Positions 3,443 to 12,494 of a DNA stretch of 64,000 bases are shown piece by piece (the first letter of the stretch is position 1; the number at the start of each line of letters is the position of its first letter). The notes under the pieces were generated by a model that was not told the origin of the DNA, made no database searches, and saw only the letters and a program-made list of their open reading frames with translations. The position numbers and the translations under genes were made by a program. Source of the DNA: Gallionella sp. (GTDB taxonomy: Bacteria; Pseudomonadota; Gammaproteobacteria; Burkholderiales; Gallionellaceae); the NCBI GenBank assembly GCA_023259035.1, contig JAHFRA010000009.1, positions 28,889 through 92,888 on the forward strand. Reading direction: 5' to 3'.

Positions 3443-4165
3443 ATGACAGAACCAAGTACCCCACCAGAGATCAAGAATATGGACGAACTTTTCCGCCAAG
3501 CTCGACGCGACCGTCCACAGCCAAGCGAACTAGATGCGCGTTTTCTCGCGCTTAGAGATGTTTCCGAATTACGACGTATGGTTGAAGCGTCTGCTTCTGA
3601 AACAGACCTTGATCACTTCATTCGAGGAGAACCAAACCTACTGTCTTCACTGCTTCATTTCGTAAGCACTGGCCATCACGGTGGCAAAGTTTATCCTCAA
3701 CAGACGATTAGACCAAGTGTTGCCGGTGAGCAGAGAGGCCTTATACCTGACTACCTAATCAGCGGTCAAAGCTCGGAAGGCACAACATGGTGGGTGCTGG
3801 AACTGAAGGGGCCAAGTGAAAAACTCTTTTCGGGTACTGGGCAAAAAATCCGCCTTAGTGATACTGCAAACAAAGGTCTCGTGCAAATTCACCAGTACGT
3901 TGAATTCTGCAATGAACATCAATCCTCGCTTCGTGAGGCATTACAACTAAAGGATTTTTCCATACCGATGGGCATCCTCTTGATGGGTCGTGAAAGCGAG
4001 CTCGTGGATCCTCACCGCAGGAAAATGAAAAAGGCTCTTGGCGGCCCAATGTCACCGATACGGATTCGAACTTGGGATTCTTTACTCCGTTCGCTAGAGC
4101 ATAAGCTTGCCTTTTATGGGCACATTGGGCATGACCCACTACAAGGCCGCCAACTCGAAGATTGA
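3443..4165 (+). CDS. Shedu-like (DUF4263) nuclease-domain protein
   Basis: A 240-residue protein resembling the SduA nuclease domain (DUF4263) of Shedu anti-phage systems. The visible core is GLIPDYLISGQ, then WWVLELKGPSE, the D...ExK arrangement of a PD-(D/E)XK nuclease, followed by the helical GLVQIHQYVEFCNEH segment typical of the family. The ORF track starts at 3365, but those first 26 codons lie in the palindromic repeat, so I prefer the ATG at 3443 (MTEPSTPPEI). The gene is visibly more A+T rich than its neighbours, which suggests transfer. It stands alone, 215 bases from the toxin-antitoxin remnant. Some Shedu systems work as one gene. A defence role is inferred, not shown. Confidence 0.7.
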   Translation: MTEPSTPPEIKNMDELFRQARRDRPQPSELDARFLALRDVSELRRMVEASASETDLDHFIRGEPNLLSSLLHFVSTGHHGGKVYPQQTIRPSVAGEQRGLIPDYLISGQSSEGTTWWVLELKGPSEKLFSGTGQKIRLSDTANKGLVQIHQYVEFCNEHQSSLREALQLKDFSIPMGILLMGRESELVDPHRRKMKKALGGPMSPIRIRTWDSLLRSLEHKLAFYGHIGHDPLQGRQLED

Positions 4166-4226
4166 CCAAGCGATGGAAATGCATAGCTCTGCACCCAAGT
4201 GGGCAAAAGTGCGCAGAAAGCAGAAG

Positions 4227-4255
4227 TTGAGCCGGATATTTCCTGTTAATAAAAT
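4227..4255 (+). promoter_or_regulatory. Candidate sigma70 promoter for the glycerol genes
   Basis: TTGAGC, a 17-base spacer and TAAAAT lie 24 bases before the phosphodiesterase start codon. Both hexamers are near consensus with ideal spacing. Prediction by eye only. Confidence 0.45.
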
Positions 4256-4278
4256 CTGGATTAATACAACGAACCACC

Positions 4279-5100
4279 ATGACCCAATCCCTGATCTTCG
4301 CCCATCGCGGCGCCAATAACGAAGCGGCGGAAAACACCCGCGCCGCGTTCGACAAGGCGCTCACATACGCCATCGACGGCATCGAAACGGACGTGCAGCT
4401 CAGCCGCGATGATGTGGCGGTGCTGTGGCACGACCGCTTCCTGAACAAGGTCGGTTTGCCCGGCAAGCACATCGACGATTTCGATTATGCGCAGTTGCAG
4501 ACGATGGATTTCGCCGCGCATTTTTCTCCGGGAACGGAACCGCACTGCATCATGACCTTGCAGGAATTTATCGATGCCTACCGCAAGCGCTGCCGCCTGT
4601 TGCTCGAAATAAAGAACCGCGACTGGGAGACTCCCGCACGTCATGCAATAAAGGTCAGGCAAACCATGGACATGGTCGGCGTGGTGATCGACGACGCCAT
4701 CATGGTTTCCTCGTTCAACCTCGCCAGCCTGATCTATGCCAACCAATACCGTCCTGGCTTCCCGCTGGTTTACAATTTCGAGCCCGAGCAGACGCTGGAA
4801 GATGCGCGGCGCGTGCTGGCCGAGCAGTCGTTCCTGCACGGGCTGTGCCTGCCGATCGAATCGCTCGACGACGCGATGGTCAAGCTGCTGCGCGGCCACG
4901 GCAAAGGCATCGCGGTTTACACCTGCAACAGCGCTGCGGAGATCAATAAGGCACTGGAATTGGGCGTGGATATTTTGATCAGCGATGTGCCGGAGAGGGC
5001 GTTGCAGATACGCGCGAACATCCAAACTTCTTGCAACCCACCGTCTTCACTCCCCTCTCACACTTGTGGGAGAGGTGCTGGGGGAGAGGGAGGTGTGTAG
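4279..5100 (+). CDS. Glycerophosphodiester phosphodiesterase (cytosolic GDPD type)
   Basis: It hydrolyses glycerophosphodiesters to sn-glycerol-3-phosphate and an alcohol, feeding the dehydrogenase encoded next. Catalytic GDPD motifs are present: HRGANNEAAENT near residue 9, then GIETDVQLSRDDVAVLWHD with the metal-binding Glu and Asp and the second His, and later LLLEIK. No signal peptide is present, unlike periplasmic GlpQ. The enzyme fold ends near VPERALQIRA; the last 25 or so residues (ending THTCGRGAGGEGGV-like sequence) are encoded by a dispersed inverted repeat into which the frame runs, so the tail is probably not functional. It is the first gene of a glycerol-use cluster with glpD and a kinase. 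Confidence 0.88.
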   Translation: MTQSLIFAHRGANNEAAENTRAAFDKALTYAIDGIETDVQLSRDDVAVLWHDRFLNKVGLPGKHIDDFDYAQLQTMDFAAHFSPGTEPHCIMTLQEFIDAYRKRCRLLLEIKNRDWETPARHAIKVRQTMDMVGVVIDDAIMVSSFNLASLIYANQYRPGFPLVYNFEPEQTLEDARRVLAEQSFLHGLCLPIESLDDAMVKLLRGHGKGIAVYTCNSAAEINKALELGVDILISDVPERALQIRANIQTSCNPPSSLPSHTCGRGAGGEGGV

Positions 5101-5162
5101 AAAAATGTGCCTTCCTCAACGACTCACCCTCTCCCTAACCCTCTCCCGCAAGCGGGCGAGGT
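5050..5162. repeat. GGGAGAGG-family inverted repeat overlapping the phosphodiesterase 3' end
   Basis: CTCCCCTCTCACACTTGTGG-AGAGG... is mirrored by CCCTCTCCCGCAAGCGGGCG downstream, giving a long imperfect inverted repeat. The left arm is coding (tail of the phosphodiesterase); the right arm lies before glpD. Related sequences occur at 41655-41721 and 62461-62545. Confidence 0.75.
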
Positions 5163-5186
5163 GATTCTCCTAAAAATGAGAGAAAT

Positions 5187-6752
5187 ATGAAACGCGACTT
5201 CTCATTACTCGGCAACAAGCAATTCGACTTGCTGGTGTGCGGCGGCGGCATCTATGGCGCGTGGACGGCTTATGACGCGGCGTTGCGCGGCTTGAGCGTC
5301 GCACTGGTGGAACAGGGCGACTGGGCGAGCGCGACTTCTTCCGCGTCCACCAAACTGATCCACGGCGGACTGCGCTATCTGGAGTCGCTCGATTTCAAGC
5401 TGGTCAAGAAGGCGCTGGCGGAACGGCAGATGCTGTTGTCGGTTGCGCCGCACCGTGTCTGGCCGCTGCGCTTCGGCGTGCCGGTGTATGCGGACAGCCG
5501 CGTCGGCACACTCCAGTTGAAGGCGGGGTTGTCGATGTACGATTTCCTCGCGGACAATCCCGGCCCGGACATGGTGCATCACCACTTCGATGACAAAGCC
5601 TTTGCCGGGCGCTTTCCGTTTCTCGGCAGCGATGGGCTGAAAGGCGGCTTTACCTATGCCGATGCGCAGACCGACGATGCGCGGCTGGTGCTGGAACTGG
5701 TCTCCGGCGCGCTGGCCGCCGGGGCGGTGTGCGTGAATTATTGCAAGCTGACCGGCATGATCGAAACGGACGGGCGGGTCAGCGGCGCAACGGTTCAGGA
5801 TCAACTCGGCCACACCAGCGCGAAAGTTTCCGCGAAGCAAATCGTCAACACCACCGGACAGTGGACTGCCGCATCGGAGCAGGGGCGCGGCTGGTGCCAA
5901 CTGGACAAGGGCGTGCATCTGGTGATGCCCGCGCTGCCGACCGACGAGGCTTTGCTGCTGACCGCCAAGTCCGATGGCCGGGTGTTTTTCATGATCCCCT
6001 GGTATGGCATGACGCTGCTCGGCACCACCGATGCGGATTACAGCGGCGACCTCGACCATGTCGTGGTCGAACCAAAAGAAATTGCCTATCTGCTGGGCGA
6101 AGCCAACCACTACCTCAAGACCGCGTGGACGGAACAGGATGTGGTCGGGAGCTACGCCGGTTTGCGCGTGATGAAGCACAGCGACAAGGCGTTGCCGTCC
6201 TCGGTCAGTCGCGACTGGGAGCTGAAAACTGCCGACAACGGCGCGCATTATTCCATCGGTGGAAAGATCACCTCGGCGCGCGAAGATGCGGCGTGCATCG
6301 TCAATACGGTGTGCGCACAACTGGGTGTCGCTACACTTTGCGCCACCAAAAACCGCACCTTTCCGTGGGCGCCGGAGGCCGACTATGCGCGGTGGTTCGT
6401 CGCCGCCAGCACCCAGGCAACACAGCTCGGTATCGACCTGGACAGCGCCAAATGGCTGATACGCCGCCACGGAAAAAAGATCGGCGAGGTGTTCCGCATC
6501 ATCGAGAATGATCCGCGTTCCGCCGAACGCATCGTGCCCGCGCTGCCGTTCATATACGCTGATTTGCTGCTGTGCGCCCGCAACGAAATGGCCGTGCATC
6601 TCGACGACCTGTTGCGCCGCCGCATGCCGCTGCTGATTCTGGCCAAGCTGGAGGAAAGCACCTTGCGCCGTCTCGCCGAAACGGTTGCGGCGGCGATGGG
6701 ATGGAATGAGGCTGATGTGAATCGGGAAATAGAAACTTGTAGGATGCGGTGA
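5187..6752 (+). CDS. glpD: Aerobic glycerol-3-phosphate dehydrogenase
   Basis: The FAD-dependent membrane-associated enzyme oxidises sn-glycerol-3-phosphate to dihydroxyacetone phosphate and passes electrons to quinone. The 521-residue length is normal. The N-terminal dinucleotide fold reads LLVCGGGIYGAWTAYDAALRG, followed by the GlpD signature ATSSASTKLIHGGLRYLE near residues 50-67. LLGTTDADYSGD and YSIGGKITSAREDA mark the middle and C-terminal parts. It lies between the phosphodiesterase and an FGGY kinase. Its last codons (ETCRMR) and stop fall inside a palindromic repeat, so the natural C-terminus may have been altered by that element. Confidence 0.94.
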   Translation: MKRDFSLLGNKQFDLLVCGGGIYGAWTAYDAALRGLSVALVEQGDWASATSSASTKLIHGGLRYLESLDFKLVKKALAERQMLLSVAPHRVWPLRFGVPVYADSRVGTLQLKAGLSMYDFLADNPGPDMVHHHFDDKAFAGRFPFLGSDGLKGGFTYADAQTDDARLVLELVSGALAAGAVCVNYCKLTGMIETDGRVSGATVQDQLGHTSAKVSAKQIVNTTGQWTAASEQGRGWCQLDKGVHLVMPALPTDEALLLTAKSDGRVFFMIPWYGMTLLGTTDADYSGDLDHVVVEPKEIAYLLGEANHYLKTAWTEQDVVGSYAGLRVMKHSDKALPSSVSRDWELKTADNGAHYSIGGKITSAREDAACIVNTVCAQLGVATLCATKNRTFPWAPEADYARWFVAASTQATQLGIDLDSAKWLIRRHGKKIGEVFRIIENDPRSAERIVPALPFIYADLLLCARNEMAVHLDDLLRRRMPLLILAKLEESTLRRLAETVAAAMGWNEADVNREIETCRMR

Positions 6753-8354: not shown

Positions 8355-8446
8355 GCCCGGGTGGTGAAATTGGTAGACACAACGGACTTAAAATCCGTCG
8401 CAACCGTAAAACGTGCGTACCGGTTCGATTCCGGTTCCGGGCACCA
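8355..8446 (+). tRNA. tRNA-Leu (UAA)
   Basis: A 92-base class II tRNA with encoded CCA. The acceptor arm GCCCGGG pairs with TCCGGGC (one G-U pair), the D arm contains TGGTAGACAC, the anticodon loop CTTAAAA carries TAA, a long variable arm follows, and the T loop is GGTTCGATTCC. A TATAAT box at 8267-8272 is a likely -10, but no good -35 is visible. Confidence 0.96.
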
Positions 8447-8619: not shown

Positions 8620-10731
8620 ATGCAAGACATGACTTCATCTCTGCTATGGTTTCGCCGCATAGGCTTCTGGCTGATGCTCGCCCTGAGCTTCAGTGCTGTT
8701 GCGGCCTTCGCTCAAACCGAACGCAACCCGGTTCATAACGTACGTCTTGGCGAACCAGCCGATGCGGCACGCGTTATCGTCAAGTTCAAGCAGGGCTCCG
8801 CGCTGCTACGCAAACACGCGCTGTCATCCACGGCGAGCGCGAGCGAAACGCTCGACGCGGTAACGGCGCGTGCCAATTCTCTGGGTGCGCGTCTGGGCGT
8901 GAGCTTGCGCGCTGGTCGCGCACTCAACGTGCATACGCAGGTCGTCAGCGCGGGCGGAATCAGTAGCGCCGCACTGGCAGAACGCCTGGCTGCAGAGGCC
9001 GATGTCGAATACGCGGTCGTCGACCAGCGCCGCACGCACTTCGCGGTACCAAACGATCCTTTGTATACGCAGGGACCGCCAATCAGCGGCAGCACGGGAG
9101 GCCCCGCTGTCGGCCAGTGGTATCTGCGCGCTCCTGCGGGTGAGGTTGTATCCAGTATCAACGCAACCAGTGCCTGGGATCTGACCACCGGCAGCTCGAA
9201 CATCGTTGTTGCGGTGCTTGATACGGGAGTACGTCCGGAACACCCGGATCTTGCCAACAGGCTATTGGCTGGCTATGACATGGTGAGCGACATACCGACG
9301 GCTAGTGACGGCAATGGCCGCGAAGCGGATGCCTCTGACCCGGGTGACTGGATAACGGCGAGCGAGTCCAATAACCAGTCGGGCCCGTTCTACCAGTGCG
9401 GAGCGGGGGACAGCTCATGGCACGGTACCAAGACAGCTAGCCTGATAGGGGCGTCGACCAACAATGGCGTCGGAATGGCGGGTGTGGCGGGGGGTATAAA
9501 ATTGCTGCCGGTGCGAGTGCTCGGCAAATGCGGTGGTTTTGATTCCGACATCATTGCCGGCATGAACTGGGCTGTTGGTTTGCCCGTGCCGGGTGTGCCG
9601 TCTAACCCCACCCCGGCGCGGGTCATTAACATGAGTCTGGGCGGCAGTGGTGCATGTCCCCGGAGTTATTTTGATGCGGTCAACGCGATTATCAGCAAGC
9701 AAAATCCCGCAGTTGTCGTGGCGGCGGCCGGCAATAGCACCGGTCACGCGGTCAGCGTACCCGCCAACTGTCCGGGAGTGATTGGCGTGGCGGGTTTGCG
9801 CCACATCGGAACCAAGGTCGGCTTTTCTGACCTGGGGCCGGAAATCAGCATCAGCGCACCCGGTGGCAATTGCGTTAACACAACTTCAGGCGCGCCGTGC
9901 CTGTACCCGATCCTCGCGGCAACCAACACGGGCATTACCACACCGGCAGCCTCTTCCTACACTGACGGCTTCAACGCCAGCGTTGGCACCAGCTTTTCGG
10001 CGCCGCTCGTGGCCGGAACCGTGGCCTTGATGTTGTCAGTCCACCCGTGGCTGACACCGACCGAGGTCAAAGCGGCGCTGCAAAGTTCGGCGCGTGCCTT
10101 TCCGCCCCGTATCGCCGGCATTTCTCAAACCGGAGCGATCCCGGACTGTCACGCGCCCGACAACAGCGACCAATTGGAGTGTTTCTGCACCACGTCGACT
10201 TGCGGGGCAGGTATGCTCGATGCTGCTGCGGCAGTGGCTTCTGTAACGCCAACCGGCAACGTTGTCGAATTCTACAATACCAACCTTGACCACTACTTCA
10301 TTTCCGCTGATTCAAACGAAGCAATGGCCATCGACGGCGGCAGCGCGGGGCCGGGCTGGATACGCACCGGCAATAGCTTCAAGTCAGGCGGCAGCGCGCC
10401 CGTCTGTCGCTTCTACGGTAGCATGTCACCCGGCCCAAACTCGCATTTCTATACTGTGGATGCCGGCGAGTGCGACTACCTCAAGCGATTACAGGCAAGC
10501 ACGCCATCCAAACAAAAACGCTGGAATTTCGAGAGCCTGGATTTTTCCTCGACACTGCCGACCAACGCCTCCTGTCCCAGCTGGACCGTGCCGGTCTACC
10601 GCGCCTATAACAATGGATTCGCCAGAGGTATCGATAGCAATCACCGCATCACCAGCAGTACGACTGCGATACAGGAGGTGGTGAACCGCGGCTGGAGCAA
10701 CGAGGGTGTGGTGATGTGCGCGCCGAATTGA
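8620..10731 (+). CDS. Secreted subtilisin-like (S8) serine protease with C-terminal DUF5648-type domain
   Basis: A 703-residue exported protease. The N-terminus has a charged start, a hydrophobic core (FWLMLALSFSAVAAF) and an AFA-Q cleavage site near residue 31. An inhibitor-like propeptide follows (ARVIVKFKQGS). The S8 triad is complete: Asp201 in VLDTGVRPEHPD, His268 in SWHGTKTA, and Ser458 in VGTSFSAP, with the oxyanion Asn in AAAGNST. Residues from about 545 to 703 form a separate domain (EFYNTNLDHYFISADSNEA to EGVVMCAPN) rich in Tyr, Phe and His. The same domain closes the next gene, with near-identical DNA at the end. The domain probably mediates surface or carbohydrate attachment, which is inference. 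Start 8620 is preferred; ATG 8629 is possible. Confidence 0.9.
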   Translation: MQDMTSSLLWFRRIGFWLMLALSFSAVAAFAQTERNPVHNVRLGEPADAARVIVKFKQGSALLRKHALSSTASASETLDAVTARANSLGARLGVSLRAGRALNVHTQVVSAGGISSAALAERLAAEADVEYAVVDQRRTHFAVPNDPLYTQGPPISGSTGGPAVGQWYLRAPAGEVVSSINATSAWDLTTGSSNIVVAVLDTGVRPEHPDLANRLLAGYDMVSDIPTASDGNGREADASDPGDWITASESNNQSGPFYQCGAGDSSWHGTKTASLIGASTNNGVGMAGVAGGIKLLPVRVLGKCGGFDSDIIAGMNWAVGLPVPGVPSNPTPARVINMSLGGSGACPRSYFDAVNAIISKQNPAVVVAAAGNSTGHAVSVPANCPGVIGVAGLRHIGTKVGFSDLGPEISISAPGGNCVNTTSGAPCLYPILAATNTGITTPAASSYTDGFNASVGTSFSAPLVAGTVALMLSVHPWLTPTEVKAALQSSARAFPPRIAGISQTGAIPDCHAPDNSDQLECFCTTSTCGAGMLDAAAAVASVTPTGNVVEFYNTNLDHYFISADSNEAMAIDGGSAGPGWIRTGNSFKSGGSAPVCRFYGSMSPGPNSHFYTVDAGECDYLKRLQASTPSKQKRWNFESLDFSSTLPTNASCPSWTVPVYRAYNNGFARGIDSNHRITSSTTAIQEVVNRGWSNEGVVMCAPN

Positions 10732-10822
10732 CCCGGCAGTTTATAGCGGTGCGCATGAGGACAATCCCCCCTCCCTGGCCATTCATTGAACTCCTGTTTC
10801 GGAAAAGATTGACCAATTATTC

Positions 10823-12352
10823 ATGATAAATAACCGATTACTATTCGCAGCGCGGGATGTCAGGGACATGATCGTGGCTTCACGCTTGCTGAGAAGCATG
10901 GGGCTGATGTTTGTCGCAACTATTGCATGGCTTGGCGGGCTTTCAACGCCTGTGGTTTTTGGAGCCATTGATGATGTCGTGTATCAGAACAGCTTCCCGG
11001 TCTCTACGGCCTCAAGTTTGACCCCAGCAAATCTGATCATCAACGGAGAATCCAGGGCCTTGCTGATATACCGGCCTTCAGGTAGCCAGTCTCAGCCGCT
11101 TCTGATCTTCTATAGCGGCACAGGCGGAACCCTGGAATACAACATAGCAGATGAAATTGGGCGCGATACTCTGCGCAATTTTGCGGACAGAGAAAATGTA
11201 ATAGTTGCAATCCCGATTCAACGTGTAATGTCGTATGGCGACTGGGATAATCATTCTGCCGGAACCCCATACTGGGAAACCTCTGTGGGGGAAGCAACTT
11301 CAAGCGCTGCCAGCAGCAACCCTGATACCAATCCTGACCTTCTCTTTACCCGTGCCATAATAAAGGAAGCCTCTGTTGCTTACGGCGCTGACCTTGCTCG
11401 GGTCTATGTAAACGGTTTTTCCAACGGAGCTTTCTTTTCGTATTTTGTTGCTGCAACACTGAGCAACAGGATTGCGGCCTTTGCCGAGACAGGAGGGGGA
11501 TTGGTGATGAGCCAGACTACAGCCGGTGAGCCAACTCCATGCACCCCAACCGCCTTGCCTGCTGCGCCAAACGCAGTACGCAGCTGCGCAGAAGCAGGCT
11601 GGAGTATCGGCTTATGTTCCACTCCCGGCGCAATGGCGCGTCCGATAGCACCGGGTGCTGTTGTCATGGTGCCTCCAGGGTTCATGGAGGCTAATGACGA
11701 TGATAATAGCGTACCGTTTGCGCATACCTGTAACCTCGCAAATGCCCTGCCTGTTTCAACCGCCTACCAGGTCAGGATCGCTCACAGCGGCATCGGGCAT
11801 GCCATGAATGGAGATTATCTCGACAACTCATGGAGTTTTATGAAGAACTTTCGCACTGCTACTTCAACGGTCATCGAGTTCTTCAATACCAACCTCGACA
11901 ACTACTTCATCACCGCCGACTCAAACGAAGCGGCGCAGATCGACGGCGGCGCGGCGGGACCGGGCTGGAGCCGCACCGGCTATACATTCAAGTCGGGCGG
12001 CACTACTTCTGTTTGCCGTTTCTACGGCAGCTATTCGCCCGGCCCGAACTCGCATTTTTACACGGTCGATCCGGCGGAATGCCAAGGGCTGAAAGACCAG
12101 CAAATCCCCGCAGGCGATCCGCGCAAACTCACTGTAAAGAGCTGGAATTTCGAGAGCCTTGATTTCGTCTCGACTCCGGCGACAAACCAAACTTGCCCCA
12201 CCGGCACCGCGCCGGTCTACCGCGCCTATAACAATGGATTCGCACGGGGCGTCGATTCCAACCACCGCATCACCAGCAGTACAACCGCGATACAGGAGGT
12301 CGTGACGCGCGGCTGGAGCAACGAGGGCGTGGTGATGTGCGCGCCGAATTGA
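10823..12352 (+). CDS. Exported PHB-depolymerase-like esterase with C-terminal DUF5648-type domain
   Basis: A 509-residue predicted extracellular alpha/beta hydrolase. A signal peptide is seen around residues 20-47 (LLRSMGLMFVATIAWLGGL, then VVFG-A), so translation may start at the internal ATG at 10868 rather than at 10823. The nucleophile elbow is GFSNG with Ser200, and a late His occurs in HSGIGHAMNG, as in poly(3-hydroxybutyrate) depolymerase and feruloyl esterase relatives. From about residue 352 the protein carries the same C-terminal domain as the upstream protease (EFFNTNLDNYFITADSNEA to EGVVMCAPN). The gap to the protease gene is 91 bases, so the two may be co-expressed. The true substrate is unknown. 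Confidence 0.82.
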   Translation: MINNRLLFAARDVRDMIVASRLLRSMGLMFVATIAWLGGLSTPVVFGAIDDVVYQNSFPVSTASSLTPANLIINGESRALLIYRPSGSQSQPLLIFYSGTGGTLEYNIADEIGRDTLRNFADRENVIVAIPIQRVMSYGDWDNHSAGTPYWETSVGEATSSAASSNPDTNPDLLFTRAIIKEASVAYGADLARVYVNGFSNGAFFSYFVAATLSNRIAAFAETGGGLVMSQTTAGEPTPCTPTALPAAPNAVRSCAEAGWSIGLCSTPGAMARPIAPGAVVMVPPGFMEANDDDNSVPFAHTCNLANALPVSTAYQVRIAHSGIGHAMNGDYLDNSWSFMKNFRTATSTVIEFFNTNLDNYFITADSNEAAQIDGGAAGPGWSRTGYTFKSGGTTSVCRFYGSYSPGPNSHFYTVDPAECQGLKDQQIPAGDPRKLTVKSWNFESLDFVSTPATNQTCPTGTAPVYRAYNNGFARGVDSNHRITSSTTAIQEVVTRGWSNEGVVMCAPN

Positions 12353-12371
12353 TAGGGCAAGATGCGGCGCG

Positions 12372-12494
12372 CTTAACCCGGATATTTCGCCGGATCGCGG
12401 AAGGCCTGCGCTACAAACCGGATTTCACTCTTGTTGGCTTGCACCCCTGTATTCATGCCGCTTCCCATTGATTTTAGGGCCGCTCCGGGTTAAG
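12372..12494. repeat. Perfect 11-bp inverted repeats 123 bp apart, possible MITE or IS remnant
   Basis: CTTAACCCGGA (12372-12382) and TCCGGGTTAAG (12484-12494) are exact inverted repeats bounding a 123-base non-coding segment between two convergent genes. No transposase is present. It could be a small non-autonomous element or a remnant of an insertion sequence. Confidence 0.5.

Follow-up and report, generated by a model that had tools for sequence, protein, structure and literature searches.

DUF5648 (PF18885) is a widespread C-terminal auxiliary domain of secreted proteins with a (beta3-alpha)3 architecture, or three-bladed beta-alpha propeller, whose function rests on indirect hints. It constitutes the C-terminal domain of BSAP-2 and BSAP-3, O-antigen-targeting toxins of Bacteroidales (PMC12853789), and serves as an auxiliary domain in GH70 glucan enzymes and an endolysin (PMC12853789, PMC11299179, PMC13379245); glycan binding by the domain is a proposal, reached by inference in two of these studies (PMC12853789, PMC11299179). 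The copies described here share with the known family the Pfam match, the three beta-beta-alpha-beta units and the role of a C-terminal auxiliary domain of secreted proteins, but they represent a divergent, four-cysteine form, 27-28% identical to canonical DUF5648, that is present in 13 or more copies per genome and bears the marks of blade-wise gene conversion. The C-terminal domains of BSAP-2 and BSAP-3 belong to the same Pfam family and are likewise terminal on secreted proteins; however, those proteins are pore-forming toxins aimed at the O-antigen of other cells, whereas the carriers considered here are mostly enzymes, cytochromes and propellers. A further parallel is the GlyGly-CTERM/rhombosortase system, a known exchangeable surface-sorting tag of type II secretion system (T2SS) proteases (PMC13393428). 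It too is an exchangeable C-terminal module of many exported proteins, and tails resembling it replace DUF5648 in orthologues of the protease, but it is a short cleaved motif (a glycine-rich stretch, a hydrophobic helix and a basic end), whereas DUF5648 is a folded domain, and a profile search of the present genome for rhombosortase (TIGR03902) returned no match.

The window analysed here, a stretch of 64,000 nucleotides, is part of contig C8 of a Gallionella sp. genome of 2.88 Mb in 68 contigs. It contains two co-directional genes, separated by 91 bases, which encode a protease of 703 residues and an esterase of 509 residues:

8355-8446, + strand: tRNA-Leu(TAA), context only (ARAGORN)
8620-10731, + strand: secreted S8 (subtilase) protease with signal peptide and C-terminal DUF5648 (PF00082, E 2.8e-51; PF18885, E 5.4e-12)
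10261-10731, + strand: DUF5648 of the protease, with blades at 10261-10398, 10399-10587 and 10588-10728, then the stop codon (Pfam, alignment, AlphaFold2)
10823-12352, + strand: secreted alpha/beta-hydrolase, PHA-depolymerase- or feruloyl-esterase-like, with C-terminal DUF5648 (NF050058, E 2.1e-13, below its cut-off)
11870-12352, + strand: DUF5648 of the esterase, with blades at 11870-12007, 12008-12208 and 12209-12349, then the stop codon (Pfam, alignment)

The tRNA gene lies immediately upstream of the pair; tRNA genes are common integration sites. The protease translation displays a signal peptide and the DTG, HGT and GTSFSAP motifs (Asp/His/Ser) of Peptidase S8, and the esterase a signal peptide and a GFSNG nucleophile motif, along with a match to the feruloyl esterase 9j07 (E 0.0026). 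The N-terminal parts, Peptidase_S8 and alpha/beta hydrolase, are unrelated, as the earlier note had stated of the catalytic domains.

The C-terminal domain common to the two proteins spans about 157 residues and is recognised as DUF5648 at 46.5 and 56 bits (Pfam gathering cut-off 25 bits), with a similarity between the two far beyond chance (blastn E 9e-100). The earlier note had described it as a single nearly identical domain: the sharing is borne out, but over its whole length the identity is 75% at the nucleotide and 77% at the protein level. The near-identity that the note had located in the last stretch does hold there, over the final ~47 codons (89% nucleotide and 94% amino acid identity), with an identical run of 33 nucleotides around GTCTACCGCGCCTATAACAA, and this stretch corresponds exactly to the last of three structural blades. 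An AlphaFold2 model built from 22 aligned copies (pLDDT 91.8, pTM 0.85) comprises three beta-beta-alpha-beta units, and the same order of units is predicted (pLDDT 93.3) for a sister protease whose tail is canonical DUF5648, with 27-28% identity to both window domains. Cysteines 49, 71, 105 and 153 (numbering of the protease domain) are nearly invariant across the 22 copies, which would fit an oxidising, extracytoplasmic location. Foldseek searches with the model against the PDB and viral models yielded nothing significant, and a sequence search of the PDB gave no match for the domain. The chain of both proteins stops with the last strand (...GVVMCAPN), and there is no membrane helix or basic tail; neither has, at its extreme C-terminus, the short motif with a hydrophobic helix and a basic tail that defines GlyGly- and PEP-CTERM signals.

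A genome-wide search for other carriers, as the earlier note had suggested, recovered 13 full copies of DUF5648 and three fragments. The carriers are unrelated to each other, and the majority are non-enzymes: besides the S8 protease and the esterase, they include several RCC1-repeat proteins, a DUF5122 propeller, a multihaem CXXCH protein, a cytochrome-c-like protein, and CARDB and TIG/PPC proteins, among others. All 13 have a signal-peptide-like N-terminus (identified by script in 12 and by eye in the remaining one, which starts with GTG), and in three of the 13 the domain is internal. Several carriers also have a near-identical signal-peptide region (MRLxIIRLFILLGL...), with 85-91% DNA identity (L021 5046-5092, L024 1224-1287, L025 1994-2057), and the multihaem CXXCH protein (L020 6079-6911), in which DUF5648 is terminal, is composed of tandem units of ~141 nt that are 78-85% alike. 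For most pairs of copies, the DNA homology begins within 0-6 nt of the domain border, and where the gene ends with the domain the blastn matches extend 3-33 nt beyond the domain end, past the stop codon:

12353-12374, + strand: non-coding 3' flank co-copied with the domain (AGGGCAAGATGCG...; blastn matches to other copies)

A few pairs additionally share an adjoining Ig-like or RCC1 stretch. For example, the otherwise different carriers at L020 15291-15995 and L022 5100-5792 have in common DUF5648 and ~215 bases of the preceding Ig-like stretch, a block 82% identical over 706 nt; going by these sequences, larger module blocks are evidently shuffled too. Contigs C13 and C52 (L028 and L027, bases 1-120) open with 120 identical bases inside blade 3 and diverge directly after the stop codon, the shared 3' flank being kept in C13 and absent in C52. 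As both begin in blade 3, where the assembly breaks at the repeat, the true number of copies is probably at least 15. C52 also contains, at L027 3314-3460, an open frame of 48 codons that consists of blade 3 only and its 3' flank; it lies ~3.3 kb from another blade-3 end and resembles a relic or partial copy.

Within this family, the two neighbours of the window are not each other's closest relatives. The copy closest to the protease domain is C14 (83% amino acid identity), and those closest to the esterase domain are C7-RCC1 and C57 (91%), as against 77% between protease and esterase; seven other genomic copies are nearer to the protease domain, and several others to the esterase domain, than the two are to each other. 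Segments with different histories, the signature of a family under gene conversion, were recovered by PHI, AU and max-chi2 tests. Across 12 copies, PHI gave p = 0.001 with all sites and 0.001-0.08 at third positions depending on the test window (0.001 at w = 10), and in AU tests the data of each blade rejected the topologies of the other two. Max-chi2 placed breakpoints in both window domains:

10567-10731, + strand: putative converted tract (blade 3) in the protease, from C10CXXCH/C14-like to C57/esterase-like (max-chi2 p = 0.0035 at all sites, 0.006 at third positions)
12032, + strand: mosaic breakpoint in the esterase, C10-RCC1-type on the left and C7-RCC1/C57-type on the right (max-chi2 p = 0.0005)

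The protease breakpoint corresponds to alignment column 120 (window position ~10567), just before blade 3. Of the diagnostic sites in the esterase, 16/19 to the left of ~12032 and 0/33 to the right match C10-RCC1 (the p of 0.0005 being the permutation floor), while 33/33 on the right match C7-RCC1; at third positions, the matches to C10-RCC1 number 6/8 on the left and 0/22 on the right. The parent pairs for these breakpoints were picked after inspecting the identity table. A systematic run of all 55 parent pairs at third positions returned seven pairs below 0.001 for the esterase and, for the protease, none below 0.001 and two below 0.01, which makes the esterase mosaic firm and the protease mosaic moderate. 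We take gene conversion to be real and family-wide, with both the protease and the esterase domains being mosaics as judged from their aligned sequences. The domain copying or gene conversion surmised in the earlier note is thereby upheld as a process operating among unrelated exported genes, but not as a pairwise exchange between the protease and esterase genes, for which the longest-run test gave no significant result (p = 0.20) and which both have nearer copies elsewhere. A direct recent exchange between them is not favoured over other donors, and a C57-cytochrome-type donor accounts for the last blade of the protease equally well as the esterase does.

The same kind of pattern is seen in G113, a finished, single-contig genome from another family of the order, which has 31 DUF5648 copies. 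Three genes clustered at 4.446-4.453 Mb have domains that are 91-100% identical in nucleotide sequence per blade and N-termini that are 32-38% identical at the protein level, and a fourth shares blade 3 only (86-90% DNA identity vs 50-55% in blades 1 and 2). As this assembly is a single contig, an artefact of MAG binning or contig joining is an unlikely cause. Copies of the Gallionella type occur in 4/76 genomes of the genus, which indicates that the family is not essential for export or anchoring in the genus. The Pfam family as a whole was found in 17/250 genomes of the order, several with 8-18 matches; a scattered occurrence, combined with expansion in the genomes that do have the family, is common. 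In a tree of 83 copies from eight genomes, clustering by genome exceeds that in shuffles, with no one-clade-per-genome pattern, and a search of a plasmid collection with the domain gave no match.

Orthologues of the protease switch tails at one junction (TCGAGMLDA...). That in L059 has the same form of the domain as the window and that in L060 canonical DUF5648, while in L061 it is another repeat domain; in L062-L065, L067 and L070 the tail is GlyGly-CTERM-like, with a glycine-rich stretch, a hydrophobic helix and an arginine-rich end. Against the NCBIfam GlyGly-CTERM model, one of five such tails came near the cut-off (15.0 vs 15.5) and the others gave nothing firm; a firm GlyGly-CTERM call was accordingly dropped and only the label '-like' retained. 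In the L061 orthologue (3935-6292) the C-terminus consists of a repeat, GLWAIDAENxxQSGRGFQIE..., present twice and matching no Pfam family; L069 encodes a more distantly related S8 protease that terminates in a similar repeat.

Could the likeness of the last blade be due purely to conservation of the protein, with no conversion at all? Across all pairs, blade 3 does have the highest mean protein identity (0.86), whereas the mean synonymous difference is equal across the blades (0.35, 0.37 and 0.35), and the run test of the window pair points the same way. The higher protein identity of blade 3 is in part constraint, and the equal synonymous differences imply that it is no special hot spot in this genome. 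However, constraint as the whole explanation is at odds with the PHI result, which includes third positions (w = 10), with the AU rejections and with the third-position breakpoints. The protease and esterase also use the same codon for shared residues 24/33 times in blade 1 (13.7 expected), 19/39 times in blade 2 (16.5 expected) and 33/42 times in blade 3 (16.6 expected); with matches near chance in blade 2 and at double chance in blade 3, blade 2 is saturated and blade 3 is not. Synonymous differences spread evenly at background level, which the earlier note had named as evidence against its idea, were not seen: they number 9/42 in blade 3 vs 29/72 elsewhere (Fisher p = 0.043, which is weak alone and pairwise). 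Given also that the homology crosses the stop codon, the breakpoints and flanks largely refute pure constraint, which we regard as highly improbable. A diversity-generating retroelement rewriting 3' ends would account for repeated gene ends of ~120 nt and for the lone blade-3 fragment on contig C52, but the differences between copies are often synonymous and not confined to adenines; with no match to reverse transcriptase (PF00078) in the assembly, this candidate was rejected, and its probability is practically negligible.

As to function, the earlier note had offered a sorting or an attachment signal, and of these attachment is, as far as sequence can indicate, the most likely role. Instead of binding a ligand, the domain might be what a single transport machine recognises on its cargo, a signal for secretion or sorting comparable to PEP-CTERM, GlyGly-CTERM or the T9SS C-terminal domain. 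Such a role would suit a single, mostly C-terminal domain on many unrelated exported proteins, the GlyGly-CTERM-like tail that occupies the same place in orthologous proteases and the missing rhombosortase match in this genome. It is hard to reconcile with a folded domain that has no hydrophobic helix or basic tail and is internal in 3/13 carriers, features that make a cleaved tag in particular unlikely, and with the absence of the family from 72/76 genomes of the genus; moreover, enzymes of Gram-positive bacteria and endolysins of phages, which use different export routes, also contain DUF5648. We therefore judge a sorting signal distinctly unlikely. Somewhat less so, though still unlikely, is that the domain recognises enzyme substrates, with targets on other cells or on polymers, in the manner of a CBM or a toxin receptor-binding domain, and not the surface of the producer. 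The BSAP toxins do use this fold on target cells (PMC12853789), and the endolysin and GH70 examples are in line with this; against it, the cytochrome, RCC1 and DUF5122 carriers have no obvious substrate, and one homogenised domain across all carriers argues for a common ligand.

On balance, we favour, with modest confidence, a folded module by which exported proteins stay attached to the cell surface or matrix, probably through the binding of a glycan. This reading builds on computed features, namely the identity and predicted fold of the domain, its occurrence in 13 or more exported proteins that are otherwise unrelated, DNA homology beginning at the border of the domain and crossing the stop codon, and the mosaic histories with internal breakpoints. 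The signal peptides would export the carriers, probably via Sec and then type II secretion (GspG-type T2SS genes are present in the genome), after which the folded DUF5648 would retain them on a polysaccharide of the surface or matrix; carriers ranging from proteases and esterases to propellers and cytochromes may in this way be kept at one place. Cytochromes and proteases are such dissimilar carriers that the simplest reading would be one ligand common to all, on the surface or matrix of the producing cell; such a ligand is presumably a glycan, with the T2SS as the probable route. Conversion, in turn, may be maintained because all carriers need to recognise one ligand, although such mosaics could also arise by plain homologous recombination between long repeats, without ligand-driven selection. 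A decidedly more tentative extension, which we think rather doubtful, is that DUF5648 acts across the genome as a tag for docking to glycans and is thus the folded equivalent of the CTERM sorting systems. Some lineages would have expanded it to 10-30 unrelated exported proteins and would keep it uniform by blade-sized conversion, so that upon a change in the surface polysaccharide all carriers could shift their docking specificity jointly.

While the domain itself is known, its blade-wise homogenisation across unrelated exported genes appears to be unreported. The genome offers a natural experiment, with many unrelated exported proteins bearing the same domain in one cell and protease orthologues with and without it, and the role of the domain thereby becomes directly testable. 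Recombination seems to homogenise the domain in tracts roughly one structural repeat long, and this may provide a way for a bacterium to confer one attachment property on a whole set of exported proteins.
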